Below are positions 45,552 through 63,094 of a DNA stretch of 64,000 nt, piece by piece. The position numbers and the translations under genes were made by a program. Below the pieces are notes generated by a model. It had not been told where the DNA came from. It searched no databases and saw only the letters and a program-made list of their open reading frames with translations. Source of the DNA: Oricola sp. (GTDB taxonomy: Bacteria > Pseudomonadota > Alphaproteobacteria > Rhizobiales > Rhizobiaceae); the NCBI RefSeq assembly GCF_022763245.1, contig NZ_JALEGV010000041.1, positions 481,223-545,222 on the forward strand. Reading direction: 5' to 3'. Numbering within the stretch: position 1 is the first letter of the stretch; each line of letters starts with the position of its first letter.

Positions 45552-47099
45552 CTAGCCGAGCAACGAGGGGACCGATACCGCCACTTCCTCAGGCACAACC
45601 GAACGGCCGAACCGGCGCACACACAGGTTGACCGGGGCACGCATGCTGTTGGCGCGGTGCTCGGCCTGCTCGAACAGGCCACCCGAGATACGGTGCCCGT
45701 AGCTCAAGGTTGCACTGGCACGCGCTTTCGACATCGACAATATGGCGGCCCGAGCGCGCAATGAGGGCCGGTCCGGATCGGTCATGAAGGGCTCGTAAAA
45801 CAATCGCGCCAGAGGATGGAAGGCGTAGAGTTCGGCGCGCACGGGCTCCAGTTCAGCGCGCCGCCCGCCGGCAATCAGCGCTTGGCACAGGAAGAAATGC
45901 ACATAGTGGCGAAACCGCGATTTCGGCGCGGCGAGTGTTTCCGCCTGACGCAACAGGTCGACCGCAGCATCGATATCGCCCGTGAAGGCAAGCAATTGGC
46001 CAAGGATCGCCATTGACGTTGCGACAGCGGTGCCGCTGCCATTCGCCTTGTGCGCGAGTTCGAGCGCCAGCGTCTTGTAGCGCCTGTCGACGTAGTACAA
46101 AAGTTTTGCCGCGATGATCGCGAGGTCCGGATTGTCTTGGCAAGTGATCAGGGCTGACTGCACCAGCCGCTCTATTTCATCGTCGATCTCGAGGCTTTCC
46201 TCCAGTCCCGAGCGGAAAGTCTTATGTCCCGAGATAACGATTTTGGTGTGCAGATGATGGGCATACATGAGTGCCAGGGCAGGGTCGTCGGGACGGTCTG
46301 CGCGCAATCTGGCGAGTTGCACATCATTTTCCTGCCATGACACAGGTGCGTCCGAGTTGTTGAAGGTCGCATTCTGCATCGCCACCGGAAGCGGCTCGCT
46401 TGATGCCATGTGATCCACGTCGACGCGCCAACGCGCGGCGAGGATTTCGGGAACAAGCTGTTCGGCCGTTCGCTTGATCGACGGAAAGGGAGCGCTTTCG
46501 CGCATCAGTGACAGCCGGTGCAGGAAAAATACCTGCCCCGACAGGCTCGACCGGCAGGTCATCACGCATCCGGGGGCCTCGCCATCACGGAAGAAGGCCA
46601 GCTCGACCGTGAACAGCGCCGGCTCCACTCTCGCGCTAGACGCCAGGTTCATATCGGCTTCGACCGTGGCCGTTCCGCCGCCATCCGCTCCCAGCGCCTC
46701 GGCAAGGTACTGCGCGAATGCCAGACCCGCTGTCTTTTGCGATCCCAGGAGATCGAGACCGCGAAGCGGCCCAACCATGATATCCGCTGCGGCCGCCTGC
46801 ACAGCGGATGGCGCGGGTGCGGCCGGGCCAAGCCAGACATAGCCGCCGCCATAACGGGTTCCGATAAAACGTGGATTGCGGGCGTCGTCGCCGAGCTTCC
46901 GTCTGACGCGGTTGATGAGGAAATCGATGCTCCGGTCAGTCTTCCCCGAACCATCGTCCGAGATGGCATCGATGATCTGGCTGCGGGTCAGAGTCCGGCC
47001 GGCATTGCGCGACAAGACTTCGAGCAGTCGAGATTCAGCCACGGAAAAATAGACTGTATCATCGCCAAGTTTTGCACTTGTGAAATCGGTCCAGAACAC
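45552..47099 (-). CDS. Winged-helix (OmpR/ToxR-type) regulator with C-terminal TPR-like domain
   Basis: 515 residues from a GTG at 47099, the only start after an in-frame stop. Residues about 10-92 are a trans_reg_C DNA-binding domain (VAESRLLEVLSRNAGRTLTR ... RSIDFLINRVRRKLGDD ... IGTRYGGGYVWLG). There is no receiver domain and no obvious membrane helix, so it resembles soluble HilA-type regulators rather than CadC. The C-terminal half is helical with TPR-like character (ALMYAHHLHTK, AVDLLRQAETLA). It lies directly upstream of the autotransporter on the same strand and is the likely regulator of it. Confidence 0.8.
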   Translation of the reverse strand: MFWTDFTSAKLGDDTVYFSVAESRLLEVLSRNAGRTLTRSQIIDAISDDGSGKTDRSIDFLINRVRRKLGDDARNPRFIGTRYGGGYVWLGPAAPAPSAVQAAAADIMVGPLRGLDLLGSQKTAGLAFAQYLAEALGADGGGTATVEADMNLASSARVEPALFTVELAFFRDGEAPGCVMTCRSSLSGQVFFLHRLSLMRESAPFPSIKRTAEQLVPEILAARWRVDVDHMASSEPLPVAMQNATFNNSDAPVSWQENDVQLARLRADRPDDPALALMYAHHLHTKIVISGHKTFRSGLEESLEIDDEIERLVQSALITCQDNPDLAIIAAKLLYYVDRRYKTLALELAHKANGSGTAVATSMAILGQLLAFTGDIDAAVDLLRQAETLAAPKSRFRHYVHFFLCQALIAGGRRAELEPVRAELYAFHPLARLFYEPFMTDPDRPSLRARAAILSMSKARASATLSYGHRISGGLFEQAEHRANSMRAPVNLCVRRFGRSVVPEEVAVSVPSLLG

Positions 47100-47641: not shown

Positions 47642-49456
47642 TCAGTTCTTTGCGTAGGTTGCCTCGACGTGGCAGTCGATCAGCACGCGGCCTCCCGCCT
47701 TCACGACCGCGGCGGCCCTTTCCAGCGCCGCCTGCAGGTCCGCGCGCGCCCTCACCGGACCTTCGGTCTGGAAGCCCTGCGCTTCGGCCATCATGCAGAT
47801 ATTGGCTTCCGGGTTATCGATTCGCTGCCCGATCCAGCGGTTTTCAGCAGGGCGGCCGCGAGCATTTGCCACGCGCTCCTGATGCAATTCATCATTGAAA
47901 TACGACTTGTTGTTCGCAACCACGATCAACATCGGCAAATCCAGATGGCTCGCGGTCCAAAGCGCGTTGACCCCCATCAGCGTGTCGCCGTCGCCGAGCA
48001 CGGCCGTCACCAGCCGGCTGCTGTCGCGCAGCGCCAAGGCCGCGCCCACCGCCTGTCCGGGCCCGATGCCAATGGAGGCTCCGCCGTCGGTGCCCAGATA
48101 AGACAGCGGATGGTCGAACCGGCATGCGGTGGCCGGCCAGCCGATCGGAAAGCGCACGAATGTCGCATCGTTGTCGATCCCGTACTGGCGCACAGCCATG
48201 GAGAAATCCAGCAAGGCAACTGCGCCCTGCTTGTCGCCCACAGGCTCCTGCCGCAAACGCGCGCTCCAGTGCGTACCGGAAAAGTCCCGGTCGCTCGAGA
48301 ACCGGACATCCGCTCGGTCGATCTCCTCAAGCAACGCGTCGACCAGGATGTCGGGGTGAACGGCCAGATGGATGTCGGCTGCCGGCAATGCCTGGTGGTC
48401 CATCGACCAGCCATTGGCAGTCACTGCGTCCGGAGAACAATGGACGAGCGTCGTCGCGACCGGCTCCTGCGACTGCGCCTGCCCGGAAAGCGTGCGCAGG
48501 AAGCCGGCAAAGTCCATCCAGTCGAAATTGACGATGAGGTCACTGTCGGCAACGAGTTCGCGTTCCGCATCGCTACGAGCGTCACCGCAGACCGGAAGAA
48601 CGTGTTGCGGATGGTCGCTCGGAAAACAGGAAGGATTATGGATGCTGGTCATCACCGCAGCGCCGACGATTTCCGCCAGCCTGACCCTGGCATCCCATGC
48701 TTCCTGCGAACGGCCGTTGCGGCCGAACAGGAACAGCGGTTTGCGGGCCTTGCTCAGCTCCAGGAGGAGGTCGTCCATCCCGCGCTTTGTTACTCCGGTG
48801 GGCGCAGGCGGCGCGAAACGGGCGATGTCCGGCACCTTCACACTGTCGGCCAGCGGCTCCTCCTGCCATGAAACATCCATGCAGACATAGGTTGGCCCGC
48901 AAGGCGCGGTCGTCGCGATCTGGCGGGCGCGCAGCACCGCCTCGATCGCCGCTTCGGGTGACGCAGGTTGGTCGTCCCACTTGACGTAGTTCCGGATCAG
49001 CGCTCCCTGGTCTTTCGCAGTGTGCACCCAATCGATCCATGGGCGCCTCTTGTGCGCATCGACCGGACCGGTCGCGCCGAAGATGAGCATGGGAAGGCGG
49101 TCGCACCACGTGCTGTAGACAGTCATCACCGCGTGCATCAGCCCGACATTGGCATGCAGGCCCACTGCCATCGGCTTGTCGGTCACCCGCGCATAGCCAT
49201 TGGCGATCGCAACGGCATGTTCCTCGTGCAGACAGACGACCATCTGCGGATCGCGGTTGCCCAGATAGTTGACCAGCGAGTCTTGCAGACCGCGAAAGCT
49301 TGAACCGGGCACCAGAGCGAAATAGGGAATCTCGAATTCGCGCAGGAGGCTTGCGACCACGTCGCTGCCATATTGCGGCGTATTGGCCAGGCTTCCCACG
49401 GGTTTTTCGAGGTCCCTCGGATTGCTGTCTGTCGCGTGATCGGTGGTTTCGTGCAT
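47642..49456 (-). CDS. Thiamine diphosphate-dependent decarboxylase-like enzyme
   Basis: 604 residues, ATG with AAGGAGA 9 bases upstream. The N-terminal Pyr domain has the activating Glu in CLHEEHAVAIANGYARV (about residue 78). The C-terminal PP domain has the ThDP/Mg motif GDGDTLMGVNALWTASHLDL ending in ANNKSYFND. The overall layout is that of acetolactate synthase, benzoylformate decarboxylase and indolepyruvate decarboxylase. It is the last gene of the minus-strand cluster containing aldehyde dehydrogenase and O-demethylase genes, which favours a 2-oxo acid decarboxylase producing an aldehyde. The substrate is inferred. Confidence 0.82.
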   Translation of the reverse strand: MHETTDHATDSNPRDLEKPVGSLANTPQYGSDVVASLLREFEIPYFALVPGSSFRGLQDSLVNYLGNRDPQMVVCLHEEHAVAIANGYARVTDKPMAVGLHANVGLMHAVMTVYSTWCDRLPMLIFGATGPVDAHKRRPWIDWVHTAKDQGALIRNYVKWDDQPASPEAAIEAVLRARQIATTAPCGPTYVCMDVSWQEEPLADSVKVPDIARFAPPAPTGVTKRGMDDLLLELSKARKPLFLFGRNGRSQEAWDARVRLAEIVGAAVMTSIHNPSCFPSDHPQHVLPVCGDARSDAERELVADSDLIVNFDWMDFAGFLRTLSGQAQSQEPVATTLVHCSPDAVTANGWSMDHQALPAADIHLAVHPDILVDALLEEIDRADVRFSSDRDFSGTHWSARLRQEPVGDKQGAVALLDFSMAVRQYGIDNDATFVRFPIGWPATACRFDHPLSYLGTDGGASIGIGPGQAVGAALALRDSSRLVTAVLGDGDTLMGVNALWTASHLDLPMLIVVANNKSYFNDELHQERVANARGRPAENRWIGQRIDNPEANICMMAEAQGFQTEGPVRARADLQAALERAAAVVKAGGRVLIDCHVEATYAKN

Positions 49457-49563
49457 CGGCTGGGTCTCCTTGCCGGACCATGGCAGTCCGACAGCATCGC
49501 GAACGCGCCTGGCCGATTACCGGAACCGGCCAGGCGCTGGGGTTTCGACGGTTTGCCCGCCTC

Positions 49564-50520
49564 TTACTTCTGGATCCGCTCGGGATACTGGAAGAGTTTC
49601 GCCTGATCCTCCGCAGACAGCGGCCCTTCGAGCACGCCCTGGGCGATGGCGTCTTCGGTGATGATGTCGAGACCCGACACCTTGTCGACCGTCAGGATTT
49701 CAGGCGACCAGAAGTCGTCGCGCAGGGTCTTGGCACGGTCGAGGTCGACGTCGATCTCTTTGGCGTAGATCTCAAGCGCTTCGTCGCTGCCGCTGAAGAT
49801 CCAGTCGATCGTGTCCTGGTAGGCGCTCATGTAGCGCTGCACGAGGTCGTCGCTGGCCTCGGAATTGGCGATGATCCAACGCAAGCTCTGGTTCTTGATC
49901 CGGTCGATCTCGTTGTCGCGGAAGACGACGCGGATTTCGCCGCGGTCGATGGCGTCGGTTCCGAACTCCGGATAAGAGAAGCCGACATCGACCTGACCGC
50001 TCATCACCTGCGTGAACGTGGCCGGCGTTCCGCCGGTGGCGACATGCTCGAATGTCAGGCCATTCTGCTCCATCAGCATCTTGCCGATATTGTAAGTGCC
50101 CGAACCCGTGGTCGAGTAGGCGACGCTGTGGCCCTCGAAATCCTCGATTTTCTGGATCTCGGAATCCTGGCGCACATACCAGTAGTTGGCCGAGCCTGTG
50201 GTCGAGGCACCGACGACCTTGATCGGGGCGCCCTGCGTGAAGGCGCTGATCACACCGACACCGCCCGGCGCAACGCCGAATTGCACGCCGCCGGAAACGA
50301 CCGCCTGGATCGTCTCACCGCCGCCGCGGGTGTAGCGGATATCCGGATCGAGGCCGTATTCCTCGAAGATGCCGCCCTGCTTTCCGATCTCGGTGATGAG
50401 GGCTTCGAGATTGCCGCCGGAACCGATGGCGACCTGAACGGTCTCCAGATCCTGAGCAAGTGCGCCGTTCGCGGCCAGCGCGAGTACCGCCGCGGCCATG
50501 GCTGTTGTCAGCTTTTTCAT
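49564..50520 (-). CDS. ABC transporter binding protein, NitT/TauT family
   Basis: 318 residues with signal peptide MKKLTTAMAAAVLALAANG cleaved after ALA. The mature protein (VQVAIGSGGNLEALITEIGK, GGIFEEYGLDPDIRY, GGGETIQAVVSGGVQFGV) is of the SsuA/TauA/ThiY NMT1-like fold. Members bind sulfonates, nitrate, pyrimidine precursors or aromatic acids such as phthalate. It is encoded downstream of its permeases and ATPase, before the ThDP enzyme gene, within the predicted aromatic catabolic cluster. Confidence 0.87.
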   Translation of the reverse strand: MKKLTTAMAAAVLALAANGALAQDLETVQVAIGSGGNLEALITEIGKQGGIFEEYGLDPDIRYTRGGGETIQAVVSGGVQFGVAPGGVGVISAFTQGAPIKVVGASTTGSANYWYVRQDSEIQKIEDFEGHSVAYSTTGSGTYNIGKMLMEQNGLTFEHVATGGTPATFTQVMSGQVDVGFSYPEFGTDAIDRGEIRVVFRDNEIDRIKNQSLRWIIANSEASDDLVQRYMSAYQDTIDWIFSGSDEALEIYAKEIDVDLDRAKTLRDDFWSPEILTVDKVSGLDIITEDAIAQGVLEGPLSAEDQAKLFQYPERIQK

Positions 50521-50575
50521 GTTCTTCTCCTCCTAGTTTGTTCGCCCGCCGCCATCGGCAAGGCGTTGCTTTCTT

Positions 50576-51361
50576 TTAGAAACTGCTTCCGGACTCCCTC
50601 TCCCCTGCCATTCTGATCATTGCGGTGTTGATCGCGACGGAAACGATGAAGATGAAGAAGATCAGGGCGTACATCGTCGGCATGTCGTATTTGTTGAAAG
50701 CCTGCGTCACGAGGTAACCGAGACCGTTCTTGGCGAGCTTGGTCTCCGCCAGAAGGACGCTGATGATGGCGACCGCCAGACCCAACCGCGCGGCGTTTAT
50801 GGCGGCGCCTCTGATCGCCGGAAGGTAGATCTTCGTGATCACCTGGCTCCGCGTCGCCTTGAAGGCGGCGCCGACCCGCAGGAATACAGGGTTCACCGAG
50901 CGGACGCCCGACGCGATGTTCAGGCAGACTGGAAAGAACGCCGCGACCGCGCCAAGGCCGATCTTGGAGCCACTGTCGACGCCGAACCAGATGATGACGA
51001 TGGGCAGAAAGATGATCTTAGGCGTGGCGGAGACGTAATAGACATACTTCTCCAAGGCCCGTGACAGGTAGTTCGAGACCCCGAGCACATAGCCCGCCAC
51101 CGCCCCGACCGTACCGCCGAAAAAAATAGCGAGCACCAGTTCTCCTGCTGTCACCGACAGGTGCCAGTAGAAATCCGGCGACGTGAGCAACTCCCACAGG
51201 GCCGCGACGATCTTCAAGACGCTTGGGAAGACCCCTTGGTAGAAGAGGCCGGACCGGGCGGCGACTTCCCAAACGGCAATGGCCGCCAGGATGATGAGGA
51301 CGCGGATCGCCACCGGCGAAAGCGCGAGCGCCGCCGAACGCGGTGCGGCGTTGCTGGTCAT
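50576..51361 (-). CDS. ABC transporter permease, NitT/TauT family (second subunit)
   Basis: 261 residues from the ATG at 51361 (MTSNAAPRSAALALSPVAIRV), which overlaps the stop of the preceding permease gene by 4 bases. There are about six membrane segments and an EAA-type loop GAAFKATRSQVITKIYLPA. It pairs with the permease encoded upstream to form a heterodimeric channel. The much longer open frame upstream is a shadow of that gene. Confidence 0.88.
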   Translation of the reverse strand: MTSNAAPRSAALALSPVAIRVLIILAAIAVWEVAARSGLFYQGVFPSVLKIVAALWELLTSPDFYWHLSVTAGELVLAIFFGGTVGAVAGYVLGVSNYLSRALEKYVYYVSATPKIIFLPIVIIWFGVDSGSKIGLGAVAAFFPVCLNIASGVRSVNPVFLRVGAAFKATRSQVITKIYLPAIRGAAINAARLGLAVAIISVLLAETKLAKNGLGYLVTQAFNKYDMPTMYALIFFIFIVSVAINTAMIRMAGERESGSSF

Positions 51362-52110
51362 CGTATCCACCTCTCGAGCCTTTCCGTTACGAAGATGACG
51401 AGCGCACAGAGCATCATCACGAACAGGATCGCGGCGAAGGTCGCGGGCGGGTTGTAAAGCTCGGAAAACTCGGCGACCAGACCGCCGAGACCGCCGTAGT
51501 TCAGCAGAAACTCGAAGGCGATAAGGTGGATCAGGCCGAACACGAAGCCGAGTCGGATACCGGTCACGATGGTCGGCAGCGCGGCCGGCAGTTCGATCTT
51601 GAAGAAGGCCTGGCGGGGCGTCAGCTTCAGCGTTTGCCCGACCTTGCGAAACACCGGTCGGACAGTCTTCAGACCCTCCGTGGTCTTGAGCACCACGGGC
51701 GCCAACCCGCCGACGGTGGCAAATGCGATCAGCGCCGAGGGATTGCGGCCGAAAAAGACGAGGAAGATCGGATAGGCGAGGATGAGCGGAGCGGCCGCGA
51801 AACCCGCGACCAGTGGTTCCGCTGCCGCGCCCAGTCGCGGCAGCCGGTAGAGCAGCACGCCGATCAGGACGCCGAGAACGCAAATGAGAACGCCGGATAC
51901 GACTGCCAGCGACGCCGTCGACAGGAAGCGTCCAGCAAGGTCGTTGCGCGTGGCGAGCTGCGGGATTGCAGCTAGGATCGAGGACGGAAGCGGAATCGCG
52001 AATTTCGAGATGAGTCCGGCCCGGACCGCGCCTTCGAGCACGAGACCGAGGGCGAACGGAAACAGGACCGCCGCCAGGGTCGGAGAGGCAAGGATCCGAA
52101 GCGCCCTCAT
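51358..52110 (-). CDS. ABC transporter permease, NitT/TauT family (first subunit)
   Basis: 250 residues from the ATG at 52110, which overlaps the ATPase stop (ATGA). About six membrane helices and the loop GQTLKLTPRQAFFKIELPA identify it as a SsuC/TauC-like permease. Most NitT/TauT systems use one permease as a homodimer; here two different permease genes lie in tandem. Confidence 0.88.
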   Translation of the reverse strand: MRALRILASPTLAAVLFPFALGLVLEGAVRAGLISKFAIPLPSSILAAIPQLATRNDLAGRFLSTASLAVVSGVLICVLGVLIGVLLYRLPRLGAAAEPLVAGFAAAPLILAYPIFLVFFGRNPSALIAFATVGGLAPVVLKTTEGLKTVRPVFRKVGQTLKLTPRQAFFKIELPAALPTIVTGIRLGFVFGLIHLIAFEFLLNYGGLGGLVAEFSELYNPPATFAAILFVMMLCALVIFVTERLERWIR

Positions 52111-52937
52111 GCGCCCTGCGCCTCCAGCCCACGGCTCGCTTCCACGCGCAGGTCGTCCCATATCGCGGCGACGTACTGGCCGAATTTCTCACTGCCAAGG
52201 ATTTCGGACGTCCGCGGCCAGGGCAGGTCTATTTCGACCACCTTTTTGATGCGCCCCGGGCGGTAGGTCATCACCAGCACGCGGTCCGACAACTGCACCG
52301 CCTCGGTGATGTTGTGGGTGATGAGCATCGTGGTCTGCTTCATCTCGTTGTGGATCGTCGTGATCTTGTCGCCGATCAGCAGGCGGGTTTGCTCGTCGAG
52401 CGCCGCGAAGGGCTCGTCCATGAGCAGGACCTTGGGCTGCGTCACCAGCGTCCTCGCCAGCGAAACGCGCTGACGCATCCCGCCTGAGAGTTCGGCTGGA
52501 TACTTGTCCTCGAAACCGGAAAGTCCGACCATCTGCAGGAACTCGCGCGCCCTTGCGTGACGCTCTTCCTTGCCGACGCCCTTCAATTCGAGCGGAAACG
52601 CCACATTGTCGAGTGCGGACCGCCAGGGAAAAGCAGCGTCTTCCTGGAACACCAGTCCGACATCGGTGGCGGATTGCTGGAGCGGCTTGCCTTCCAGGCG
52701 AATCTCGCCTGAATTGCCCTGCAGGAAGCCGCCCAGGATGTTGAAGATGGTCGTCTTGCCGCATCCCGACGGGCCGATGACCGAGGCGAATTCGCCCTCG
52801 GGGATCGAGAAGGACACATCGTCGAGCGCCACGACCTGCCCCTTCGGCGTGTCGAAAACGACGCTGACGCCGTCAAAGCCGATCATCTCCGAAGCCGGCC
52901 GCGCGGCGGAAGGCGAAACGGGGGCAGCCATGGTCAT
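52107..52937 (-). CDS. ABC transporter ATPase, NitT/TauT family
   Basis: 276 residues. Walker A GPSGCGKTTIFNILGGF, Q-loop VFQEDAAFPWRSALDNVAF, signature LSGGMRQRVSLARTL, Walker B VLLMDEPFAALD and H-loop LITHNITEAVQL are intact. The Q-loop form WRSALDNVAF is typical of the SsuB/TauB family. It heads the four-gene transporter block and lies 100 bases downstream of the aldehyde dehydrogenase gene. Confidence 0.92.
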   Translation of the reverse strand: MTMAAPVSPSAARPASEMIGFDGVSVVFDTPKGQVVALDDVSFSIPEGEFASVIGPSGCGKTTIFNILGGFLQGNSGEIRLEGKPLQQSATDVGLVFQEDAAFPWRSALDNVAFPLELKGVGKEERHARAREFLQMVGLSGFEDKYPAELSGGMRQRVSLARTLVTQPKVLLMDEPFAALDEQTRLLIGDKITTIHNEMKQTTMLITHNITEAVQLSDRVLVMTYRPGRIKKVVEIDLPWPRTSEILGSEKFGQYVAAIWDDLRVEASRGLEAQGA

Positions 52938-53037
52938 GATGCTCCCGCCAGGCGACGGCTTCGTTCGTGCCGGTGAGTGGTCGCGTGAAGATGCAAGTTT
53001 CTTTCCTCCCCGTGGAACACGGTCCCGCCGTCTCGCG

Positions 53038-54528
53038 TCAGGCGATCATTTCCTCGTCGAATTCGATGTGAACGTTCTTTTCGCGGGTGAAGCTCAGCAG
53101 TTCCTGCAGGCAGTTTTCCTTGCCGATGCCGGACTGCTTGTAGCCGCCGAACGGTGCGCCCAGGAAATGCGTCCCGACCCTGTTCACCCAGACATATCCC
53201 GCCTCCACGCTGCTCGCGGCGCGGTGGGCGCGGTGCAGATCGTTGGTCCAGATCGAGCAGGTGAGACCGTAATCGACGGCATTGACGTTGCGGTACATCT
53301 CGGCCTCGTCGCGCCAGCGCAGCACCGACAGAACCGGACCGAAGATCTCCTCCGATGCGATCGCCATATCCTGCGTGACGCCGGTAAAGACCGCCGGGTA
53401 GACGAAAAATCCGTTTTCGAGGGCCGGGTCCTCCGGCTTCACGCCGCCATAGGCGAGCGTCGCCCCCTGCGCCTTGCCCTTCTCGATGTAGCCGAGCACG
53501 CGCTCATACTGGCGGGCATTGATGATCGACCCCATCGTGGTCGAGAACTCGGTCGGAATGCCGGGTTCGAAGCGGGCGATTCTGTCCAGAATCTCCGCCA
53601 TCACAGCATCGTGGATGTCGTCATGCAGGAACAGCCGGCTCGTCGAACCGCAGGATTGGCCGCACCATCCGAAGTTCATGCCGGCGATCGCCGCTTCCGC
53701 GACCTTTGCGGGAGAGGCGTCCGGAAACGCGACGAGCGCATTCTTGCCGCCCAGTTCGAGGATGATCGGCTTCAGCGTGGACGATGCGGACTGCATGATG
53801 GCCTTGCCGGTCGGTACGCTGCCGACGAGCGTCACCATGGCGATATCGGGGTGTTCCGACAGCGTTTGGCCAACATCTCGGCCACCGTTGAGTATGTTCA
53901 TCGCCCCGGCCGGCAGCAGGTGACCGACCAGTTCAGCCATGCGCAGGCTCGACAACGGCGCCTGCTCGGGCGGCTTGACGATGACCGAATTGCCGGCGGC
54001 CAGCGGCGCCGCCATCTTTCCGGCGCTGAACATGAAGGGGTGGTTGAAGGCGACGATGCGGGCCACGATGCCACGCGGCTCGCGCATGGAATAGGTGACG
54101 GAGCCCGGCCCGAACGGGATCGAATGGCCCTTCATCTCGGTCACCAGCCCGGCGTAGAAGTCGAACCAGGACGCCGCCATGTGCACGTCGTTGACCATGT
54201 CGCGGGCCGGATTGCCGCTGTTGGCGGAATCGAGGTAGGCAAGCTCCGGCGCATTGGCGCGGAAGATCGTCGCCATCTCGCGCATGATATCGGCGCGCTC
54301 GGCGGGCTTTGTCCGCGACCATTCGCGAAAGCCATCGCCCGCTTCGGCGATGCATTCATCGACGTCTTCGGGGGAGGCTACCGCGACCTCGGCGAGCGGT
54401 TTGCCGGTCGCGGGATTGAAGGTCGGCGCTGAGCCGGTGGAAGCCGACTTCCGCCACCTTCCGCCGTAAAAGAGACCGTCATGGCCGGGCAGCACCTCGC
54501 CAAGGGTCAATTCGCGGACTTGATCCAT
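53038..54528 (-). CDS. Aldehyde dehydrogenase, NAD(P)-dependent
   Basis: 496 residues. The catalytic Glu is in LELGGKNALVAF and the nucleophile Cys in GWCGQSCGSTSRLF; the NAD contact FNHPFMFSAGKMAAPLAAGN and the late motif EEIFGPVLSVLRW are standard. It oxidises an aldehyde to the acid. Betaine aldehyde, vanillin and salicylaldehyde dehydrogenases all belong to this superfamily, so specificity comes only from context. Between the GntR gene and the transporter genes, it fits oxidation of an aromatic aldehyde before O-demethylation. Confidence 0.9.
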   Translation of the reverse strand: MDQVRELTLGEVLPGHDGLFYGGRWRKSASTGSAPTFNPATGKPLAEVAVASPEDVDECIAEAGDGFREWSRTKPAERADIMREMATIFRANAPELAYLDSANSGNPARDMVNDVHMAASWFDFYAGLVTEMKGHSIPFGPGSVTYSMREPRGIVARIVAFNHPFMFSAGKMAAPLAAGNSVIVKPPEQAPLSSLRMAELVGHLLPAGAMNILNGGRDVGQTLSEHPDIAMVTLVGSVPTGKAIMQSASSTLKPIILELGGKNALVAFPDASPAKVAEAAIAGMNFGWCGQSCGSTSRLFLHDDIHDAVMAEILDRIARFEPGIPTEFSTTMGSIINARQYERVLGYIEKGKAQGATLAYGGVKPEDPALENGFFVYPAVFTGVTQDMAIASEEIFGPVLSVLRWRDEAEMYRNVNAVDYGLTCSIWTNDLHRAHRAASSVEAGYVWVNRVGTHFLGAPFGGYKQSGIGKENCLQELLSFTREKNVHIEFDEEMIA

Positions 54529-54611
54529 CCCTTCCTCCCAATTCTTGCGCAGTTCGGCACGTCCGGTGCGGGCTCCCCCTTGCCCCTCCAGTCCGCCCGA
54601 TCAGCAGCGCG

Positions 54612-55295
54612 TCACTTGAAATAATGGTCCGGCGCCTCGAGAATCTCTCGGCAGGACGCCTCGACATGCCGGGTCATCCGGCGTTGCGCCTCTTCCGCGT
54701 CGCGCTTCAGAATCGCGTTGAGAATTCCGGTATGCTCCTCGTACGAGCGCTTGGTCGCCTCCCGGCGCGACAGCAGCTTGTCGAACTGCACGCGGAAGCT
54801 CTCCAGCAGCGTCGCTGCGATGACGGGCGGCAGGCTCTTGTTCCCGCTCAGTTCGATGATCGTGTTGTGGAAGCTTTCGTTGTAGGACGAGTAATCGTCG
54901 CTCGCCGGATCGAATTCGTCATGGAGCGCGATCAGCCGCTGGCGCCCTTCCTCTTCCAGCCTCTCAGCGACCAGACCGGCTGCCAGCCCTTCGACCACGC
55001 CGCGAATCTGGTTCAGCTCGACCACCTTCTGGCGCGACAGGATGCGAATGCGCGCCCCGCGGTAACGCTCGAACTCCACCAGCCCTTCGGCGCGCAGATG
55101 GACCAGCGCCTCGCGCACCGTGCCGCGGCTGACGGAGAGGCTTTGCATCAAGTCGGGTTCGACGAGGCGCTGGCCGGGGACAAACCGCCCCTGGCGCATG
55201 CCTTCGCGAATGTGATCGAGAACATCCTGAAGCGTGGAGCCGCCCTTGCGCGCATCCTGATTCTGGGTCTCGGCAACCAAGGCGTCGTCGGTCAT
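54612..55295 (-). CDS. GntR-family (FCD subfamily) transcriptional regulator
   Basis: 227 residues from the ATG at 55295 (MTDDALV), because AGGAG lies 6 bases before it; ATGs at 55301 and 55319 are in frame but poorly spaced. The winged helix (LQDVLDHIREGMRQGRFVPG QRLVEPDLMQSLSVSRGTVR split here at 20) is followed by an FCD ligand domain with FHNTIIELSGN and a C-terminal HVEASCREIL containing the metal His. FCD regulators usually sense carboxylic acids. An operator copy lies in its promoter region, so it is probably autoregulated, and two more control the neighbouring divergent genes. Confidence 0.9.
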   Translation of the reverse strand: MTDDALVAETQNQDARKGGSTLQDVLDHIREGMRQGRFVPGQRLVEPDLMQSLSVSRGTVREALVHLRAEGLVEFERYRGARIRILSRQKVVELNQIRGVVEGLAAGLVAERLEEEGRQRLIALHDEFDPASDDYSSYNESFHNTIIELSGNKSLPPVIAATLLESFRVQFDKLLSRREATKRSYEEHTGILNAILKRDAEEAQRRMTRHVEASCREILEAPDHYFK

Positions 55296-55337
55296 TGGCA
55301 TCTCCTGGAGTGCAAACATGGGGACCAGATTACCTCG

Positions 55338-55366
55338 ATTATAGTTAGACGATATCGTCAAACGAT
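55338..55366 (-). promoter_or_regulatory. gntR promoter with GntR operator copy 1
   Basis: The operator ATCGTCAAACGAT is at 55354-55366 and overlaps a 10-bp palindrome ACGATATCGT. On the minus strand a perfect TATAAT (55343-55338) follows 10 bases further on. The operator would thus cover the promoter spacer, as expected for autorepression. The pattern CGT-N3-ACG fits the FadR-subgroup rule of GT and AC half-sites. Confidence 0.7.
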
Positions 55367-55396
55367 TCAACACGGTTCCAGCGCGGCGGCGGGGTG

Positions 55397-56812
55397 CTAT
55401 GCCGCCGCCACCCTCTGGGTCTTTCTGTCGCGGACGACCTGCGCATAGGGCGCAGGCGCCACGGTAACGCGCACGTCGGTCTGGCGATGACGCTCCACAT
55501 GGGGCTTGCGCGATCCGCCATCGGGTTCGCCCCATGTGAGCATCAGTTCGGTTCCGGTTTCCGCGAATTTGCGGTCGATCATGACGAGCGAGAGCACCTT
55601 CGCCTCATTGGCGCTGTATCCGACAAAGGTGGAGTGGCCGGCGATCTCGCCGTCCGGCGTACGCACCGTGTCATATTGCTGATAGGCATAGGAGGCGTAT
55701 GGCAGCCTCAGCATCTTGAAAGCCGGCCCCGGCTCCAGGATCGAGGAGAAGATGCGCGACACGTCCTCGTCGTTCCAGACCAGCGTTCGCCGCGCCCGGG
55801 TCGGGTTCCGGGCCTGCTCCTCGAGCGCCGCACGGCCGATGAAGTCGTGGTCGAACTTGATCCGGCCGTCGACGCCGAGGTCCCAGGGCGTGACGTAGTA
55901 GTCCTCCAGCCTGTCCGAAACGAAGCTGCCGCCGAGCTGCGCTCCGGACTCCCAGCAATCCGCAGGCAACCACTGGCGGTAGTCGCGCAGCTTGTCGCTG
56001 GTGAAGATCGCCGGGAAAGGCGACGCCATCCAGCCGCTCTCGGTCACGGCGCTGAAATACGTCACCGTGCCGCCCTGCTGCAGGCCGTATTTCCCGCCGA
56101 CCTCGAGCAGCGCCGCGCGCACCTTCTCACCGTCTTCGAAACGGCCGGAGAGCTCGACACCCTGGTGGCCCGCCATGCCGTGGCGCAGCGCCGTCACATC
56201 GCAGCCGGCGATACGGACGGTCGCGGCCCAGAAGAACTTGATGTCCGGCATGTCGCCTTCGATGACTTCGGAGAAGATCTTGCCGGCGTTCGGGCCGTCC
56301 ATCCCGAAGCGAAACTTCAGGCGTGTCCCCTTCGGATTTCGCGCCGTGTTGTTGTCGCGCTCCAGCGTCACGTCATAGCCGCCCGTGATCGCGTTGTACT
56401 CGACCCAGTTGAGGAGCGGCATGCCGCTGACGAGTTCGAATTCCTGCTCGCCGTGGCAGTACATCAGCGTCTCGCCGATCACCTGCCCCTCGTGGTTGCA
56501 GGCGATGAACTGCTTGGCCCGGTTGGGTACGAAATTGGTGAAGCTGTTGACGCCGACATCGCTCAACAGCCGCATCGCGTCCGGGCCGCGCACGAACAGC
56601 TCCGGCATGTGGTGCGACTGATCGAACAGGACTGCCGTGTTGCGCCAGGCACGCTGCTCGTCGACCCAGTTCGTTCGCTCGGTCGGCACCGGCGTCAGGC
56701 CCGGCGTGGCCTTCACGTGAGGAGCGCGCGTGTCGTTGTAGAAATGGTCTACGAGATCCGGAATCGGCGACAGCAGATCTTCGAGGGTTTCACTCTGATT
56801 TTGCGCGCTCAT
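55397..56812 (-). CDS. Tetrahydrofolate-dependent aryl O-demethylase, LigM/DesA family
   Basis: 471 residues from the ATG at 56812 (MSAQNQSE), the same length as Sphingobium LigM as I recall it. It belongs to the aminomethyltransferase (GcvT) fold but has LigM-type features along its whole length: NWVDEQRAWRNTAVLFDQSH, RHGMAGHQGVELSG, ESGWMASPFPAIFTSDKLRD YRQWLP (split at 20), GGSFVSDRLEDYYVTPWDLG, KFDHDFIGRAALEE and TWGEPDGGSRKPHVERH. LigM and DesA move the methyl of vanillate, 3-O-methylgallate or syringate to tetrahydrofolate in the cytoplasm. The exact aromatic substrate is not predictable. An operator copy lies 65-77 bases upstream of the start. Confidence 0.85.
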   Translation of the reverse strand: MSAQNQSETLEDLLSPIPDLVDHFYNDTRAPHVKATPGLTPVPTERTNWVDEQRAWRNTAVLFDQSHHMPELFVRGPDAMRLLSDVGVNSFTNFVPNRAKQFIACNHEGQVIGETLMYCHGEQEFELVSGMPLLNWVEYNAITGGYDVTLERDNNTARNPKGTRLKFRFGMDGPNAGKIFSEVIEGDMPDIKFFWAATVRIAGCDVTALRHGMAGHQGVELSGRFEDGEKVRAALLEVGGKYGLQQGGTVTYFSAVTESGWMASPFPAIFTSDKLRDYRQWLPADCWESGAQLGGSFVSDRLEDYYVTPWDLGVDGRIKFDHDFIGRAALEEQARNPTRARRTLVWNDEDVSRIFSSILEPGPAFKMLRLPYASYAYQQYDTVRTPDGEIAGHSTFVGYSANEAKVLSLVMIDRKFAETGTELMLTWGEPDGGSRKPHVERHRQTDVRVTVAPAPYAQVVRDRKTQRVAAA

Positions 56813-56876
56813 TGGCGTCCTCTCTCCCGTTGAGTCCGGCCGCTTCTTGCGATGGCCTACCTCTCCGTTAGACAAG

Positions 56877-56889
56877 ATCGTCTGACGAT
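56877..56889. promoter_or_regulatory. GntR operator copy 2 (O-demethylase promoter)
   Basis: ATCGTCTGACGAT is a perfect palindrome around its central T. The surrounding 27 bases (56867-56893) match the copy in the gntR promoter at 23 positions. It lies just upstream of the O-demethylase gene on the minus strand, overlapping a possible -35 TTGAAT. Confidence 0.75.
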
Positions 56890-56994
56890 TCAAGAGGTGA
56901 ATTTGCATTCGTGAAACGCGCCAAGCGCCAAATTCAACGGTTCCGGGGAATTTCCCGACGAAATCAAACCCGTACGCATTCGCTTGTCAACGAT

Positions 56995-57007
56995 ATCGTT
57001 CGACGAT
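56995..57007. promoter_or_regulatory. GntR operator copy 3 (class II aldolase promoter)
   Basis: ATCGTTCGACGAT shares the ATCGT-N3-ACGAT pattern and, like copy 1, overlaps the 10-bp palindrome ACGATATCGT. It lies 70 bases before the class II aldolase-family gene on the plus strand, so the same regulator should control both divergent transcripts. Confidence 0.7.
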
Positions 57008-57076
57008 ACCAAGGCGACGCAGGAACCGACAGGCCGACCCGCCGACCGTGGGCCGGAGACGCGAGGAGGAGCGAAA

Positions 57077-57808
57077 ATGAGCAGCGCCAGCGATATTGCC
57101 GCCACCAAGGACCTTCTGGTGAAGGCCAACCGAATTCTCGCCAATGAAGGTGTCGTCGACGATTTCGGGCATGTGAGCGCCCGCAGCCCTGAAGACCCGG
57201 GCCGCTATTTCATCTCATGCGCGATCAGCCCGGCCCGCGTTACTGCAGCGGATATCTACGAGTACGAACTCGACGGCATGCCGATCGCAGACCTCGAAGG
57301 ACGCCGCAGCTATTCCGAACGCGCCATTCACGGCGCGATCTACGAGGCGCGGCCCGACGTCATGGCCGTCTGTCACCACCATTCCGGCGCCATGGTCGCC
57401 TTCGCCTCGTCGACGGTTCCATTGCGCCCCGTCTTCCATCTCGGCGCAGTGCTCGGCCACGAGGTGCCGGTCTGGGACTCGCATACGGAATTCGGCGACA
57501 CGTCGCTGCTCGTCGACGACATGGACAAGGCCCGCTCGCTCGCCAGGGCGCTCGGCCCCCATTCGGTCGCGCTACTGCGTCGCCATGGCGCGGTGGTCGC
57601 CGGGGCAAGCGTCAAGCAGGTCGTCTTCTCGGCGATCTACAGTGCAGACAACGCAACCGCGCAGGCAAGGATGATCGCGATGGGCGGCGATATCTCCTAT
57701 CTGACCACCGGCGAAATAGATCAGGCTGCAGCCTTGAACCTGTCACCGGCCGGCATCGACCGCAGTTGGCCGAACCGCTGCGCGCGCGCTGGCCTGAAGG
57801 CCGATTAA
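57077..57808 (+). CDS. Class II aldolase/adducin-fold enzyme, possibly an aromatic acid decarboxylase
   Basis: 243 residues from the ATG at 57077, which has GAGGAGGAG upstream; an earlier start at 56984 would lie inside the operator. Zinc-binding His residues are seen in VCHHHSGAMVAF and in LLRRHGAVVAG, and the early motif LANEGVVDDFGHVSAR is typical. The fold is shared by fuculose-1-phosphate aldolase, ribulose-5-phosphate epimerase and the 3,4-dihydroxyphthalate decarboxylases of phthalate pathways. Residues RSYSERAIHGAIYEARPDV are as in the decarboxylase-type, non-phosphosugar members as far as I can judge. It is divergent from the O-demethylase gene and shares its regulator sites. Confidence 0.8.
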   Translation: MSSASDIAATKDLLVKANRILANEGVVDDFGHVSARSPEDPGRYFISCAISPARVTAADIYEYELDGMPIADLEGRRSYSERAIHGAIYEARPDVMAVCHHHSGAMVAFASSTVPLRPVFHLGAVLGHEVPVWDSHTEFGDTSLLVDDMDKARSLARALGPHSVALLRRHGAVVAGASVKQVVFSAIYSADNATAQARMIAMGGDISYLTTGEIDQAAALNLSPAGIDRSWPNRCARAGLKAD

Positions 57809-58337: not shown

Positions 58338-59198
58338 TCAGCCCAGTTCGAACGTCGTAACGCCGAAGATCCGGCTGATCGGCAGCCCGGGATTGTCGCC
58401 GCGATACATTCGGGCGGTTTCGAAGACCGGGTCGAGGCTGGCCTTCTTGGCGATCTCCACGGCTGCGGTGTTGTCTTCGGGTGTGTCGAGCGAGACTTCC
58501 GCGTCATCCGGCACCGATCCGGTCAGTGCCACAAACAGCGCTTCGGCGAACATCGGCTCGTCGGCGAAGAGCGGGCCGATCTTGTATCCGCTCCGGCAGG
58601 CCCGGATGGTGCCGTATCCGGTGATGGCGCCGTTGCGGGTGGCGACGAGGCTGTTGCGTCGCGTGCCGGTAGGCGGCTGTGTCCAGTTGGCGACGAAATC
58701 GCTGCGGTCAGCCGCGAAATGCGCGCGGTCGTAGCGTGCGATCGCGTCCCGGTCGGCGGGCGTGACGGCGCGGATGTCGCAACCGGTCTCCGGCGCCGGC
58801 AGACGCGCCGGCACGCCGGTGTGGCGTATGTTGCGCCCGGCCAGGGCGAAGCCGCTTCTGCGATAGTTGTCCTGTTGCGCCACGACGCCGTCGAGGCCGA
58901 TCGTGCGGCCCTCCAGGTGCCGCATGCCGGCGTTCCAGGTGGAAATGCCCGTGCCCGTTCCGCGGTGTTCAGGGCGGACGATGTAGAACCCGAGGAAGCC
59001 GAAGCCGTCGCCGTAGCGCACGACCGAGATCGACGAGACCGGCTCGTCGCCGAGGAAGCCCATCAGGAAACCGTCAGGATCCGCTGCGTGAAACGCGGCG
59101 AGGTCGTCGAGGCCGGGGTTCCAGCCTTCGCTGGCGGCCCATTCGACGGCGATCGAGAACTCTTGCGCGCTGGCCGGCCGGATGATCGGCACCGTCAT
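58338..59198 (-). CDS. GNAT-family acetyltransferase with second GNAT-like domain
   Basis: 286 residues from the ATG at 59198, overlapping the racemase stop (ATGA). The acetyl-CoA motif is FYIVRPEHRGTGTGISTWNA near residue 73, in the N-terminal GNAT domain. The C-terminal half (DIRAVTPADRDAIARYDRAHF ... YGTIRACRSGYKIGPLFAD) resembles the tandem domain of DUF1248/YitH-like acetyltransferases. The substrate is probably a small amine. It is the last gene of the transporter-racemase unit, suggesting modification of the imported compound. Confidence 0.85.
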   Translation of the reverse strand: MTVPIIRPASAQEFSIAVEWAASEGWNPGLDDLAAFHAADPDGFLMGFLGDEPVSSISVVRYGDGFGFLGFYIVRPEHRGTGTGISTWNAGMRHLEGRTIGLDGVVAQQDNYRRSGFALAGRNIRHTGVPARLPAPETGCDIRAVTPADRDAIARYDRAHFAADRSDFVANWTQPPTGTRRNSLVATRNGAITGYGTIRACRSGYKIGPLFADEPMFAEALFVALTGSVPDDAEVSLDTPEDNTAAVEIAKKASLDPVFETARMYRGDNPGLPISRIFGVTTFELG

Positions 59199-59896
59199 GC
59201 GATGCGGGCTCCGCCGGCGGTGCCGGTCCATCGGTCGGCATTGGCCGCCCGCAGCGCCTCGGCGAGCGCGACCGCCGTCGCCACCCCGTCGATGACGGGC
59301 AGTCGGAACCGGTCGGAAAGTGTCAGCGCGAGGTCGGCCATGCCCGCGCATCCAAGCACGATCGCATCCGGTTTGTCATCGGCGATCGACGTGGCGATTT
59401 CCGCCGCGATCGTGTCGCAGGATCCGTCCTTGTCGGTTTCCAGGGCCAGCACGGGCACTTCGGAGGCACGCACCTTGCGGCAGCGTTTGGCGAAACCGTA
59501 TGCTGCGAGATTGGCCTCGATCACGGGCACGGACACGCCGAGCGTGGTGACGACCGAGAACCATTCTCCGACCAGCGTCGCCGCATGGAAGGCCGCTTCG
59601 CCGATGCCGATCACCGGGATCGGCGAGCGTCGCTTCAGCGTCATCAGCCCGGTGTCGTCGAAACAGGCGATGATGCAGGCGTCATAGCCGCCCTTGTCGA
59701 TCACCTCGGCGTCGAACAGCCGGAACAGGCCGGGCAGGGCCGCGGCGCCGTCTTCCGGCCCCTGGATCGCGGGGGGCGTGTCCGTCGGGTTGACGGCGGT
59801 GATCCTCGTGTCCACCCGGGCGGCAGCCCGCGCCGCCGCCTCGATCGACCGGGTCATGGCCGCGGTCGAGTTCGGATTGATGAGGAGGATGTGCAT
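59195..59896 (-). CDS. Asp/Glu/hydantoin racemase-family protein
   Basis: 233 residues. The opening MHILLINPNSTAAMTRSIEA and the two catalytic Cys contexts IIACFDDTGL and VLGCAGMADL are those of the HyuE/allantoin racemase branch of the cofactor-independent racemases. The reaction would be racemisation of a hydantoin, allantoin or acidic amino acid. It starts 3 bases after the stop of a permease gene, so it is part of the transporter operon and likely works on the imported substrate. Confidence 0.87.
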   Translation of the reverse strand: MHILLINPNSTAAMTRSIEAAARAAARVDTRITAVNPTDTPPAIQGPEDGAAALPGLFRLFDAEVIDKGGYDACIIACFDDTGLMTLKRRSPIPVIGIGEAAFHAATLVGEWFSVVTTLGVSVPVIEANLAAYGFAKRCRKVRASEVPVLALETDKDGSCDTIAAEIATSIADDKPDAIVLGCAGMADLALTLSDRFRLPVIDGVATAVALAEALRAANADRWTGTAGGARIA

Positions 59897-59899
59897 GGC

Positions 59900-60739
59900 T
59901 CACACCATGCCCTTGCCCGCGTCGGATCCCAGACGCGCCCGGCGCTTGTTGACGATGAGCACCGTCACGAGAAAGACCGCGATGATGACGAAGGAGAAGG
60001 CCGTGGTCAGCGTGCCAAGCGCGAAGATGACCGGCGTCGTGACGTTGGTGGTCATGCCGTAGATCTCCAGCGGCAGCGTGTTGTAGCTGCCGGCCGTCAG
60101 AAGCGTGCGCGCGAACTCGTCATAGGACAGCGTGAAGCCGAACAGCGCCACGCCGATCAGCATCGGCGCGATGATCGGCAGCACGACGTTCCACACGGTC
60201 TGCCACGCTGAGGCCCCCTGGTCGCGCGCCGCCTCCTCGTAGGATTTGTCGAAGCGGTTGAACACCGCGAACATGATCAGGAGACCGAAGGGCAGGGTCC
60301 ATGTCAGCTGCGAACCGTAGCCCGAGGTCGACCAGTGCACGTTCAGGCCCGATTGCGAGAAGATCAGCCCGACGCCGAGCGAGACCAGGATCGACGGGAT
60401 CACAAGCGAGGTGATGATCAGGTAGAAGACGAGGCCGGAACCCGGAAACCGCTTGCGGAAGGCGAGCCCGCCCATCACCGAGACCACGACGGTGGTGACC
60501 ATCACCATCAGGCCGAGCACGAGCGACCGCGCGAAGCTGCCCCAGATGTCTCCGACCGCCTGTTCCTGGAACAGGTCGCGGAACCAGTGCAGCGAGACGC
60601 CGCGCATCGGGAAGGTGAGGCCGCCTTGCGGACCCTGGAAGGACAGGATCGCGATCGTCACCGTCGGCCCGTAGAGGAAGACGAGGAACAGGGCGAAGAC
60701 GGCGGCCAGGACGTAAAAGGAGCGGGGACGCTTTTCCAT
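59900..60739 (-). CDS. ABC transporter permease, PotC-like
   Basis: 279 residues with about six membrane helices, the first beginning FYVLAAVFALFLVFLYGP. The EAA loop EAARDQGASAWQTVWNVVLP is characteristic of polyamine/opine-type permeases. It forms the inner-membrane channel with the PotB-like subunit encoded 3 bases upstream. Confidence 0.9.
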   Translation of the reverse strand: MEKRPRSFYVLAAVFALFLVFLYGPTVTIAILSFQGPQGGLTFPMRGVSLHWFRDLFQEQAVGDIWGSFARSLVLGLMVMVTTVVVSVMGGLAFRKRFPGSGLVFYLIITSLVIPSILVSLGVGLIFSQSGLNVHWSTSGYGSQLTWTLPFGLLIMFAVFNRFDKSYEEAARDQGASAWQTVWNVVLPIIAPMLIGVALFGFTLSYDEFARTLLTAGSYNTLPLEIYGMTTNVTTPVIFALGTLTTAFSFVIIAVFLVTVLIVNKRRARLGSDAGKGMV

Positions 60740-60742
60740 GCT

Positions 60743-61663
60743 TCAGAGCTCCTTCCTGATGTCGACGAAGCGCAGCAGGATCGCGATCACGATCAGCACC
60801 GTGATCAGCAGGATCACCGCGGTCGCGGCGGCGGAGGGATATTGCAGCAGCGCGATGTCGTTGGAGATCAGCCGCCCGACATTGGCCTTCTGGCTGCCGG
60901 ACATGAACCGCACCGTGATGAAATCGCCCATCACGAGCGTGACGACGAAGATCGAGCCGATCATCATGCCGGGCTTGGCCAGCGGAACGATCACGTTGGT
61001 CAGCGTCTGGAAGCCGGTCGCGCCATTGTCATAGGCGGCCTCGATCAGCGATTTGTCGATGCGCATCATGGTGTTGAAGATCGGCACGACCATGAACAGC
61101 GTGTAGAGATGCACGAAGGCGAGGATCACCGAGAAGTCGGAGAACAAAAGCCACTCCAGCGGTTCGTCGATGACGCCCCACGAGATCAGCGTGGAATTGG
61201 CCAGCCCGTTGCGCCCGAGAAACGGGATCCACGAGATCATGCGGATGATGTTGGAGGTCCAGAACGGGATCGTGCACAGCAGGAACAGCACGATCTGCCA
61301 CGTCAGCGAGCGGATGTGGAAGGCCAGGAAATAGGCGATGGTGAAGCCGAGCACGAGGGTGATCGCCCAGGTGATGACGGCGTATTTGATCGTGTTCAGG
61401 AACACGGAATAGGTGACGGGCGAGGTCAGCAGGAATTCGTAGTTGTCGAACTGGAAGGCCGGATAGATCGAGAACTCGGTGGCGCCCCAGAAACTGACGA
61501 TCACGATCATCACGATCGGCAGCACGAGGAAGAACAGCAGCACGAGCGACAAGGGCAGCGACAGGAGCCAGCCGCTCACCGCGTCCGGGAGGCCCTGCAT
61601 GGTCCGGCGCTGAAGGGGCGCGCTGGTCGTCTTTGCGGCAGTGGTCTGGCTGTGGTCCGACAT
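60743..61663 (-). CDS. ABC transporter permease, PotB-like
   Basis: 306 residues with about six membrane helices. The motif CTIPFWTSNIIRMISWIPFL and the EAA loop EAAYDNGATGFQTLTNVIVP identify a PotB/PotH-type permease. It follows the binding protein gene by 74 bases in a classical polyamine-transporter gene order. Confidence 0.9.
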   Translation of the reverse strand: MSDHSQTTAAKTTSAPLQRRTMQGLPDAVSGWLLSLPLSLVLLFFLVLPIVMIVIVSFWGATEFSIYPAFQFDNYEFLLTSPVTYSVFLNTIKYAVITWAITLVLGFTIAYFLAFHIRSLTWQIVLFLLCTIPFWTSNIIRMISWIPFLGRNGLANSTLISWGVIDEPLEWLLFSDFSVILAFVHLYTLFMVVPIFNTMMRIDKSLIEAAYDNGATGFQTLTNVIVPLAKPGMMIGSIFVVTLVMGDFITVRFMSGSQKANVGRLISNDIALLQYPSAAATAVILLITVLIVIAILLRFVDIRKEL

Positions 61664-63030: not shown

Positions 63031-63094
63031 GGTAGGTGCTCCTATTGCCTCCGGTGGGTGGCCGGCGGCGGCATGCCGCAAGCCGGTTTGCGGC

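Follow-up and report, generated by a model that had tools for sequence, protein, structure and literature searches.

A candidate methoxyaromatic catabolic cluster of Oricola sp. that joins a LigM/DesA-type O-demethylase to a recurrent set of aromatic-acid genes

Gene content and shared palindromes

Here we describe a candidate cluster for methoxyaromatic catabolism at positions 47642-57808 of a 64-kb stretch of DNA from Oricola sp. (the window: bases 481223-545222 of contig 18, or C18, NZ_JALEGV010000041.1, in a genome of 5.6 Mb). A sequence-only reading had placed a LigM-type O-demethylase, an aldehyde dehydrogenase, a thiamine diphosphate (ThDP) decarboxylase-like enzyme, a NitT/TauT-type ATP-binding cassette (ABC) transporter, a class II aldolase-fold enzyme and a GntR/FCD regulator in this segment, and Pfam and NCBIfam profile searches recovered every one of these gene types (Table 1), with some revision of the gene models. 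Translation of the LigM-type gene most likely starts at ATG 56812 rather than at 56908, the aldolase-fold and GntR genes most likely start at the ATG codons at 57077 and 55295, and a 540-aa 'permease' open reading frame conceals two permease genes, neighbours overlapping by 4 bp. The minus strand carries a single run in the order LigM, GntR, aldehyde dehydrogenase, ATPase, permease, permease, substrate-binding protein and ThDP enzyme, at spacings of -4 to 107 bp, and the aldolase-fold gene is divergent from this LigM-led run. The gap between the binding-protein and ThDP genes holds a 14-bp stem-loop; such structures are common 3' of binding-protein genes.

Table 1. Features of the cluster, in window coordinates (MFE, minimum free energy)
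Feature	Position	Strand	Evidence or remark
ThDP-dependent 2-oxo-acid decarboxylase-like enzyme, 604 aa	47642-49456	-	TPP_enzyme N/M/C domains
Gap between binding-protein and ThDP genes, with stem-loop	49457-49563	-	MFE -54.1 kcal/mol, z -2.95, equalled by 2/200 shuffles
NitT/TauT-type substrate-binding protein, 318 aa	49564-50520	-	NMT1 PF09084; SsuA_fam 69.6 bits, cut-off 163.5
ABC permease 2	50576-51361	-	BPD_transp_1; gene model
ABC permease 1	51358-52110	-	Gene model; 32% identical to permease 2
ABC ATPase	52107-52937	-	ABC_tran; SaoA 226 bits, cut-off 360
Aldehyde dehydrogenase, 496 aa	53038-54528	-	Aldedh E 2.3e-145
FCD-type GntR regulator, 227 aa	54612-55295	-	GntR and FCD domains
Operator-like palindrome ATCGTCAAACGAT	55354-55366		59 bp before GntR gene
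LigM/DesA-type tetrahydrofolate-dependent O-demethylase, 471 aa (predicted)	55397-56812	-	NF047633 DesA, NF047885 LigM, LigM structures, tree
Operator-like palindrome ATCGTCTGACGAT	56877-56889		65 bp before LigM-type gene
Operator-like palindrome ATCGTTCGACGAT	56995-57007		70 bp before aldolase-fold gene
Class II aldolase-fold protein, predicted ortho-hydroxy-dicarboxylate decarboxylase, 243 aa	57077-57808	+	Aldolase_II

The supposition that these genes share operators was borne out, as exact ATCGTNNNACGAT occurs three times, before the GntR, LigM-type and aldolase-fold genes, and nowhere else in the window, compared with a mean of 0.10 and a maximum of 2 copies in 100 shuffles. Genome-wide, ATCGTNNNACGATNC has five sites, three of them in the cluster, and the reversed pattern has none. 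Because the same palindrome precedes all three genes, we predict that they are one regulon, the remaining genes lying co-directionally behind GntR. The regulator bears the marks of the FCD/VanR-type GntR class, namely GntR and FCD domains, zinc residues and a GT(N)xAC palindrome before its putative target genes. This GntR signature is given in the accessible part of PMC7797058, which treats the Agrobacterium fabrum regulator Atu1419 (PDB 6z74); Asn139, His143, His188 and His210 of the Oricola protein align with its zinc ligands Asn137, His141, His192 and His214, within an overall match of 49 bits that amounts to only a distant likeness.

Identity of the enzymes

The demethylase is predicted to belong to the LigM/DesA family: its scores are 541 bits on the DesA model (NF047633) and 479 on the LigM model (NF047885), and its match to LigM structures has an E value of 4e-119. 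Its Tyr252 (numbered in the 471-aa form) aligns with a LigM tyrosine that we take to be the catalytic Tyr247. Glycine-cleavage, sarcosine and dimethylsulfoniopropionate (DMSP) enzymes, named beforehand as identities that would speak against a methoxyaromatic role, were rejected on scores of 75 (GcvT), 41 (sarcosine oxidase) and 21 bits (DMSP demethylase). A tree of 121 rows (a quick method with SH-aLRT support only, from reading frames with at least 380 aligned residues) placed the protein in a 23-row clade of support 100, apart from the LigM of Sphingobium SYK-6 and nearest to a protein from a Novosphingobium metagenome-assembled genome (support 99); the structure matches listed include no solved structure for this clade. 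The family proposed in the sequence-only reading, which had suggested placement against LigM, DesA and DmdA, thus stands, but the protein forms a separate clade, and because it falls under both curated cut-offs we do not file it as LigM or DesA itself.

Relatives of the demethylase (51-74% identity) point to aromatic catabolism. One is found with protocatechuate (pca) genes and a GntR gene on a Methylocella plasmid, and others occur with an intradiol-type dioxygenase and a maleylacetate reductase, an apparent hydroxyquinol route; metF, purU or folD often stand beside these relatives. At locus L054 the relative is accompanied by a Rieske gene, which shares 31% identity with its phthalate-type counterpart, and by genes of the Gfo/Idh and LigB types. 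The Methylocella copy (L047, on a Methylocella tundrae plasmid) has been annotated in several pieces and may thus be broken or mis-sequenced; it was left out of the tree.

For the ThDP enzyme, the best PDB sequence matches are named benzoylformate decarboxylase (E 5.9e-26). Glu78, His101, the GDG at 488-490 and the NN at 515-516 are invariant in 20 aligned sequences, and the Glu and His positions, presumably catalytic, align with those of 4q9d. The adjoining aldehyde dehydrogenase is 41-61% identical to those counted beside ThDP relatives, and alpha-hydroxy-acid oxidase genes stand beside the ThDP gene in five loci (L036, L037, L043, L231, L232), as in a mandelate-type route. These features agree with the earlier proposal that a 2-oxo acid is decarboxylated and the aldehyde then oxidised. 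Two findings weigh against it: Ser52, the serine after PG that we matched by eye to what we take to be the active-site serine of benzoylformate decarboxylase, is Ser in 11 of 20 homologues and Ala in the other 9, and a three-dimensional model (mean pLDDT 80) matched benzoylformate decarboxylases, acetohydroxyacid synthases and a hydroxyacyl-CoA lyase alike, failing to part the decarboxylase from its synthase or lyase kin. On balance we lean towards arylglyoxylate steps for this enzyme pair, with slightly less conviction than at the outset because Ser52 is not conserved in the subfamily.

The closest solved structure to the aldolase-fold protein is 2z7b, the 3-hydroxy-2-methylpyridine-4,5-dicarboxylate decarboxylase of Mesorhizobium loti (sequence E 4.2e-50; Foldseek E 3.8e-24, TM 0.87, 41% identity), whose Glu/His site, which we assume to bind the metal, is kept. 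In the reactions of both this decarboxylase and 3,4-dihydroxyphthalate decarboxylase, the carboxylate that is lost lies ortho to a hydroxyl on the ring. We rejected the vitamin B6 enzyme itself as the identity of the window protein; locus L182 holds a close branch-mate of 2z7b that lies apart from it. Among 27 distinct aldolase-fold sequences (that of the window excluded; L179 and L180 contribute two apiece), three have a LigM-type gene near by, adjacent in L163 and L167 and about 1 kb off in L166, all without a ThDP gene. The aldolase-fold proteins of L163 and the window are sisters (68% identity, support 100/99), and the L163 gene adjoins a LigM above the cut-off (612/580) that comes from a clade other than that of the window LigM. 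Since sister aldolase-fold proteins adjoin LigMs of different clades, the two genes appear to have been brought together on more than one occasion.

Relatives in other genomes and the host complement

ThDP relatives (E 1e-60 or better) were found in 13 of 151 family genomes, that of the window included, and in 41 plasmid records. Regions of 9 kb or longer that contain such a relative number 26, with some overlap; 15 of them hold an aldolase-fold gene and 12 of these an aldehyde dehydrogenase too. Presence means identity above thresholds that we set, so that weaker homologues, such as the aldehyde dehydrogenases of 28-34% identity in L036, L037, L042 and L043, are uncounted. The aldolase-fold, ThDP and dehydrogenase genes occur together without LigM in twelve loci (L039, L040, L044, L045, L046, L173-L176, L178, L227, L228), with a NitT/TauT ATPase as well in L040, L044, L176 and L227. 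The demethylase orthologues are mostly in other aromatic clusters, and outside the window LigM and ThDP genes were together in none of 12 family orthologue regions (the neighbourhoods of all 12 LigM-type family matches besides the window's, G015 included), none of six plasmid LigM neighbourhoods and, with 38% identity as the lower limit, none of 79 named loci, of which many are short. One genome search gave a match in 43 of 297 genomes, and 20 regions around the stronger matches were fetched. The suggestion that the cluster is built around LigM therefore does not hold for a general unit; ThDP enzyme, dehydrogenase and aldolase-fold protein are best read as a recurring module, with LigM as the varying part beside it.

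The company of this module is often of phthalate type. A phthalate-dioxygenase-type set (Rieske protein, reductase, Gfo/Idh) lies near ThDP relatives in L039, L174, L175, L176, L229 and L231. The Rieske protein of L176 matches 7fjl, which we take to be a phthalate dioxygenase, at E 2.5e-178, and 7fhr, named a putative phthalate 4,5-dioxygenase, at E 6.5e-60. A gene annotated nadC (carboxylating nicotinate-nucleotide diphosphorylase) lies inside the phthalate/ThDP clusters of L229 and L231, on Thalassospira and Thioclava plasmids. Within the same genus as the window, L178 has, in this order, aldolase-fold, LysR and ThDP genes, a tripartite transporter and an aldehyde dehydrogenase, without LigM, and further along a gene that resembles one with the annotation 4,5-dihydroxyphthalate decarboxylase. 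Our expectation was that clusters of this sort would have a 3-hydroxybenzoate hydroxylase as their FAD monooxygenase, and the proteins of L227 and L039 do match 2dkh (E 4.3e-284 and 1.1e-265, respectively). A 643-aa protein of L046, picked by size as a possible hydroxylase, is instead a permease of the tripartite ATP-independent periplasmic (TRAP) type; the same family occurs in L174 and L175. In Agrobacterium tumefaciens, L227 unites the aldolase-fold, dehydrogenase, ThDP and NitT/TauT genes with a 3-hydroxybenzoate-hydroxylase-type gene, and because the 19.6 kb read holds no Pht5-type gene, its aldolase-fold enzyme is a candidate for the decarboxylase. Taken together, the phenol-forming part appears to differ among lineages, being predicted as phthalate-type dioxygenation, 3-hydroxybenzoate hydroxylation or, here, O-demethylation.

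The ring-cleavage and folate-recycling genes that the sequence-only reading had proposed to seek elsewhere in the genome are there: three intradiol and seven LigB-type dioxygenase matches, and two methylenetetrahydrofolate reductase (MTHFR) matches, neither of these two in the cluster. A 3-hydroxybenzoate-hydroxylase homologue (66%) lies at C18:340291. Four more LigM/DesA-type genes are encoded (C5:115984, C9:73103, C9:79085 and C11:64104; L027, L028, L029), and C9:73103, on a contig other than the cluster's, exceeds the LigM cut-off (625/580). The C9:73103 and C11 copies adjoin TRAP DctP genes, and the C5 copy is about 5 kb from a LigB-type dioxygenase. At C32:184954 (L211), another possible aromatic-acid locus, the gene for a LigXa_C-type Rieske oxygenase is accompanied by genes for a reductase, a carbon-nitrogen hydrolase, a GntR regulator and an ABC ATPase that shares 49% identity with that of the cluster. 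Next to the cluster, positions 58338-63934 carry a GNAT acetyltransferase, an Asp/Glu/hydantoin racemase and an ABC transporter, whose permease and binding protein have homologues (54% and 49%) at a distance of about 5 kb from the LigM paralogue of C11. At 41456-45259 the window encodes a 1267-aa autotransporter, adjoined by a winged-helix regulator (45552-47099) with a tetratricopeptide-repeat match below the cut-off.

Proposed pathway, alternatives and known systems

We consider methoxyaromatic catabolism as such to be the probable function of the cluster. More specifically, it may form, although we would put this somewhat short of an even chance, a single FCD-GntR regulon for the import and degradation of a methoxylated aromatic 2-oxo acid, perhaps with a carboxylate ortho to the side chain (of the methoxyphthalonate/methoxyphthalate type). 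The NitT/TauT transporter would import this substrate, the ThDP enzyme would decarboxylate the aryl-2-oxo acid to an aryl aldehyde and the dehydrogenase would oxidise the aldehyde to the acid, after which the LigM-type enzyme would transfer the methyl group to tetrahydrofolate (THF) and free the phenol. The aldolase-fold enzyme would then remove the carboxylate beside the phenol to give a protocatechuate- or 3-hydroxybenzoate-type acid, to be cleaved by gene products encoded elsewhere in the genome, while 5-methyl-THF would be recycled by the genome-encoded MTHFR. Gene identities, co-direction, shared palindromes, the demethylase clade and recurrent linkage in relatives are direct observations; every reaction, the order of the last two enzymes and the substrate are deduced from sequence. 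An ortho-dicarboxylate substrate with a decarboxylating aldolase-fold enzyme is a tentative suggestion. It is possible, though we incline to doubt it, that the genes encode an undescribed pathway from methoxyphthalonate through methoxyphthalate and hydroxyphthalate to hydroxybenzoate or protocatechuate, in which the phenol comes from THF-dependent O-demethylation instead of ring dioxygenation and the aldolase-fold protein acts as an ortho-hydroxyphthalate decarboxylase, and that the ThDP, dehydrogenase and aldolase-fold genes are a wider, hitherto unrecognised module of proteobacterial phthalate-type catabolism that takes different phenol-forming enzymes.

Several observations weigh against this interpretation. 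The enzymes of the window all stay below the NCBIfam equivalog cut-offs (LigM 479/580, DesA 541/800, benzoylformate decarboxylase 148/493 and, far below, the PhtC model of 3,4-dihydroxyphthalate decarboxylase 76/200), and metF, purU and folD are not in the cluster. The phthalate theme rests on relatives, because the genome itself has no Pht5-type match at E 1e-10; moreover, the Pht5-type name is the product name of a record, and the L176 member has no Pfam or NCBIfam family. In the accessible text of two reports, Pht5 yields 3-hydroxybenzoate from 4-hydroxyphthalate (PMC10773090; PMC13040137), so that the link to the hydroxylase is equally explained by a Pht5-type gene where both occur. In the phthalate-type clusters of L169, L170, L172 and L177, which have TAXI-type TRAP transporters, the aldolase-fold gene and a Pht5-type gene are within a few kb of each other, and ThDP and dehydrogenase genes are absent. 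It should also be noted that the count of ThDP genes near 14 of the 27 aldolase-fold sequences is inflated, the regions having been fetched through aldolase-fold, ThDP and plasmid ThDP searches. A fairer control, with the aldolase-fold protein as the sole query, took in all 17 matches (E 1e-55) from beyond the family, several of the regions ending early at contig ends, and was mostly negative: one locus (L263) had a ThDP/phthalate context, five had a Pht5-type gene and none had LigM or a 3-hydroxybenzoate hydroxylase.

The substrate could instead be a simple methoxylated arylglyoxylate of the vanilloylformate type, as the sequence-only reading had proposed, which would be imported, decarboxylated by the ThDP enzyme, oxidised to vanillate or syringate and O-demethylated. 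We regard this as unlikely, though possible: it would employ the same enzymes, the ThDP 4-hydroxybenzoylformate decarboxylases 6qsi and 7orx are among the structural matches, and the Methylocella LigM-type relative lies beside pca genes, as vanillate would predict. However, the aldolase-fold enzyme, which had been given no role, would then be a lower-pathway aldolase or an unrelated member of the regulon, leaving unexplained both its 41% match to an aromatic dicarboxylate decarboxylase and its recurrent linkage to ThDP and dehydrogenase genes, in several loci together with phthalate-dioxygenase- and Pht5-type genes; the genome, besides, already has a LigM above the cut-off elsewhere. It is rather improbable that the cluster consists of two units under one regulator, joined by recombination, with LigM and the aldolase-fold enzyme serving a methoxyaromatic and the ThDP, dehydrogenase and NitT genes a mandelate-like acid. 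Such an origin would account for the association of LigM with ThDP in the window alone among the neighbourhoods read, and for the ThDP-less pairs of L163, L166 and L167, but it sits poorly with a single, closely spaced run of co-directional genes that follows a shared palindrome and with the twelve LigM-less loci in which the aldolase-fold gene accompanies ThDP and dehydrogenase genes. We think it highly improbable that the aldolase-fold protein acts as a true aldolase or as an oxygenase that depends on metal, so that the pathway would shorten the side chain oxidatively rather than decarboxylate the ring, since NovR, TqaM and pyruvic oxime dioxygenase share its fold (Foldseek E 3.7e-14 to 8.9e-12, 19-24% identity) but the decarboxylase 2z7b is closer.

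The methoxyphthalate-type route offers a testable function for the recurrent ThDP, dehydrogenase and aldolase-fold module, and would link folate-dependent O-demethylation with phthalate-type chemistry. The analysis also marks out a LigM-type clade whose gene contexts are of the protocatechuate type and, apparently, of a hydroxyquinol type, and enzymes of such kind are relevant to the conversion of lignin and plant aromatics and to the degradation of aromatic dicarboxylates. In a partial literature search, with most subscription journals outside it, we recognised no description of a pathway with this gene set, no assigned role for the module and no paper on a methoxyphthalate-, hemipinic/opianic- or hydroxyphthalate/phthalonate-type pathway of this kind. 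The cluster looks like a new combination of known parts, not a new kind of system, in which a known folate-dependent demethylating enzyme is joined to a decarboxylating module that has been little studied.

With LigM (vanillate/3-O-methylgallate) and DesA (syringate) of Sphingobium SYK-6 the demethylase shares its fold, full length and aligned tyrosine, and its relatives likewise have methoxyaromatic-type gene contexts; unlike them, it belongs to its own fully supported clade under both cut-offs. The ThDP enzyme resembles the benzoylformate and 4-hydroxybenzoylformate decarboxylases (1bfd, 6qsi, 7orx) in its fold and aligned Glu and His, and their systems in the neighbouring aldehyde dehydrogenase and, for some relatives, alpha-hydroxy-acid oxidases, but at about 21-22% identity it is longer and forms a subfamily of its own, linked with phthalate-type genes, in which the Ser is not conserved. 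The aldolase-fold protein has the fold and Glu/His residues of 2z7b and PhtC, and removal of an ortho-to-hydroxyl carboxylate is predicted for it too, whereas it stands on a branch distinct from 2z7b and far under the PhtC cut-off.

The regulatory arrangement recalls Atu1418-Atu1420. According to the accessible portion of PMC7797058, Atu1419 represses the O-demethylase gene atu1420, atu1418 and itself through a GT(N)xAC-type palindrome, with N5,N10-methylenetetrahydrofolate as the proposed effector; it is, like the cluster's regulator, an FCD GntR protein with the same aligned Asn/His/His/His. Its palindrome as given there, ATGTATACAT, differs from that of the cluster and is absent from the window, and its second target makes methylene-THF, where the cluster has ThDP, dehydrogenase, ABC transporter and aldolase-fold genes instead. 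A further counterpart is the o-phthalate 4,5-dioxygenase (pht) pathway, whose clusters in several genomes carry relatives of the window's ThDP, dehydrogenase and aldolase-fold genes; in place of the phthalate dioxygenase, dihydrodiol dehydrogenase and Pht5-type gene of those clusters, the Oricola cluster has LigM.

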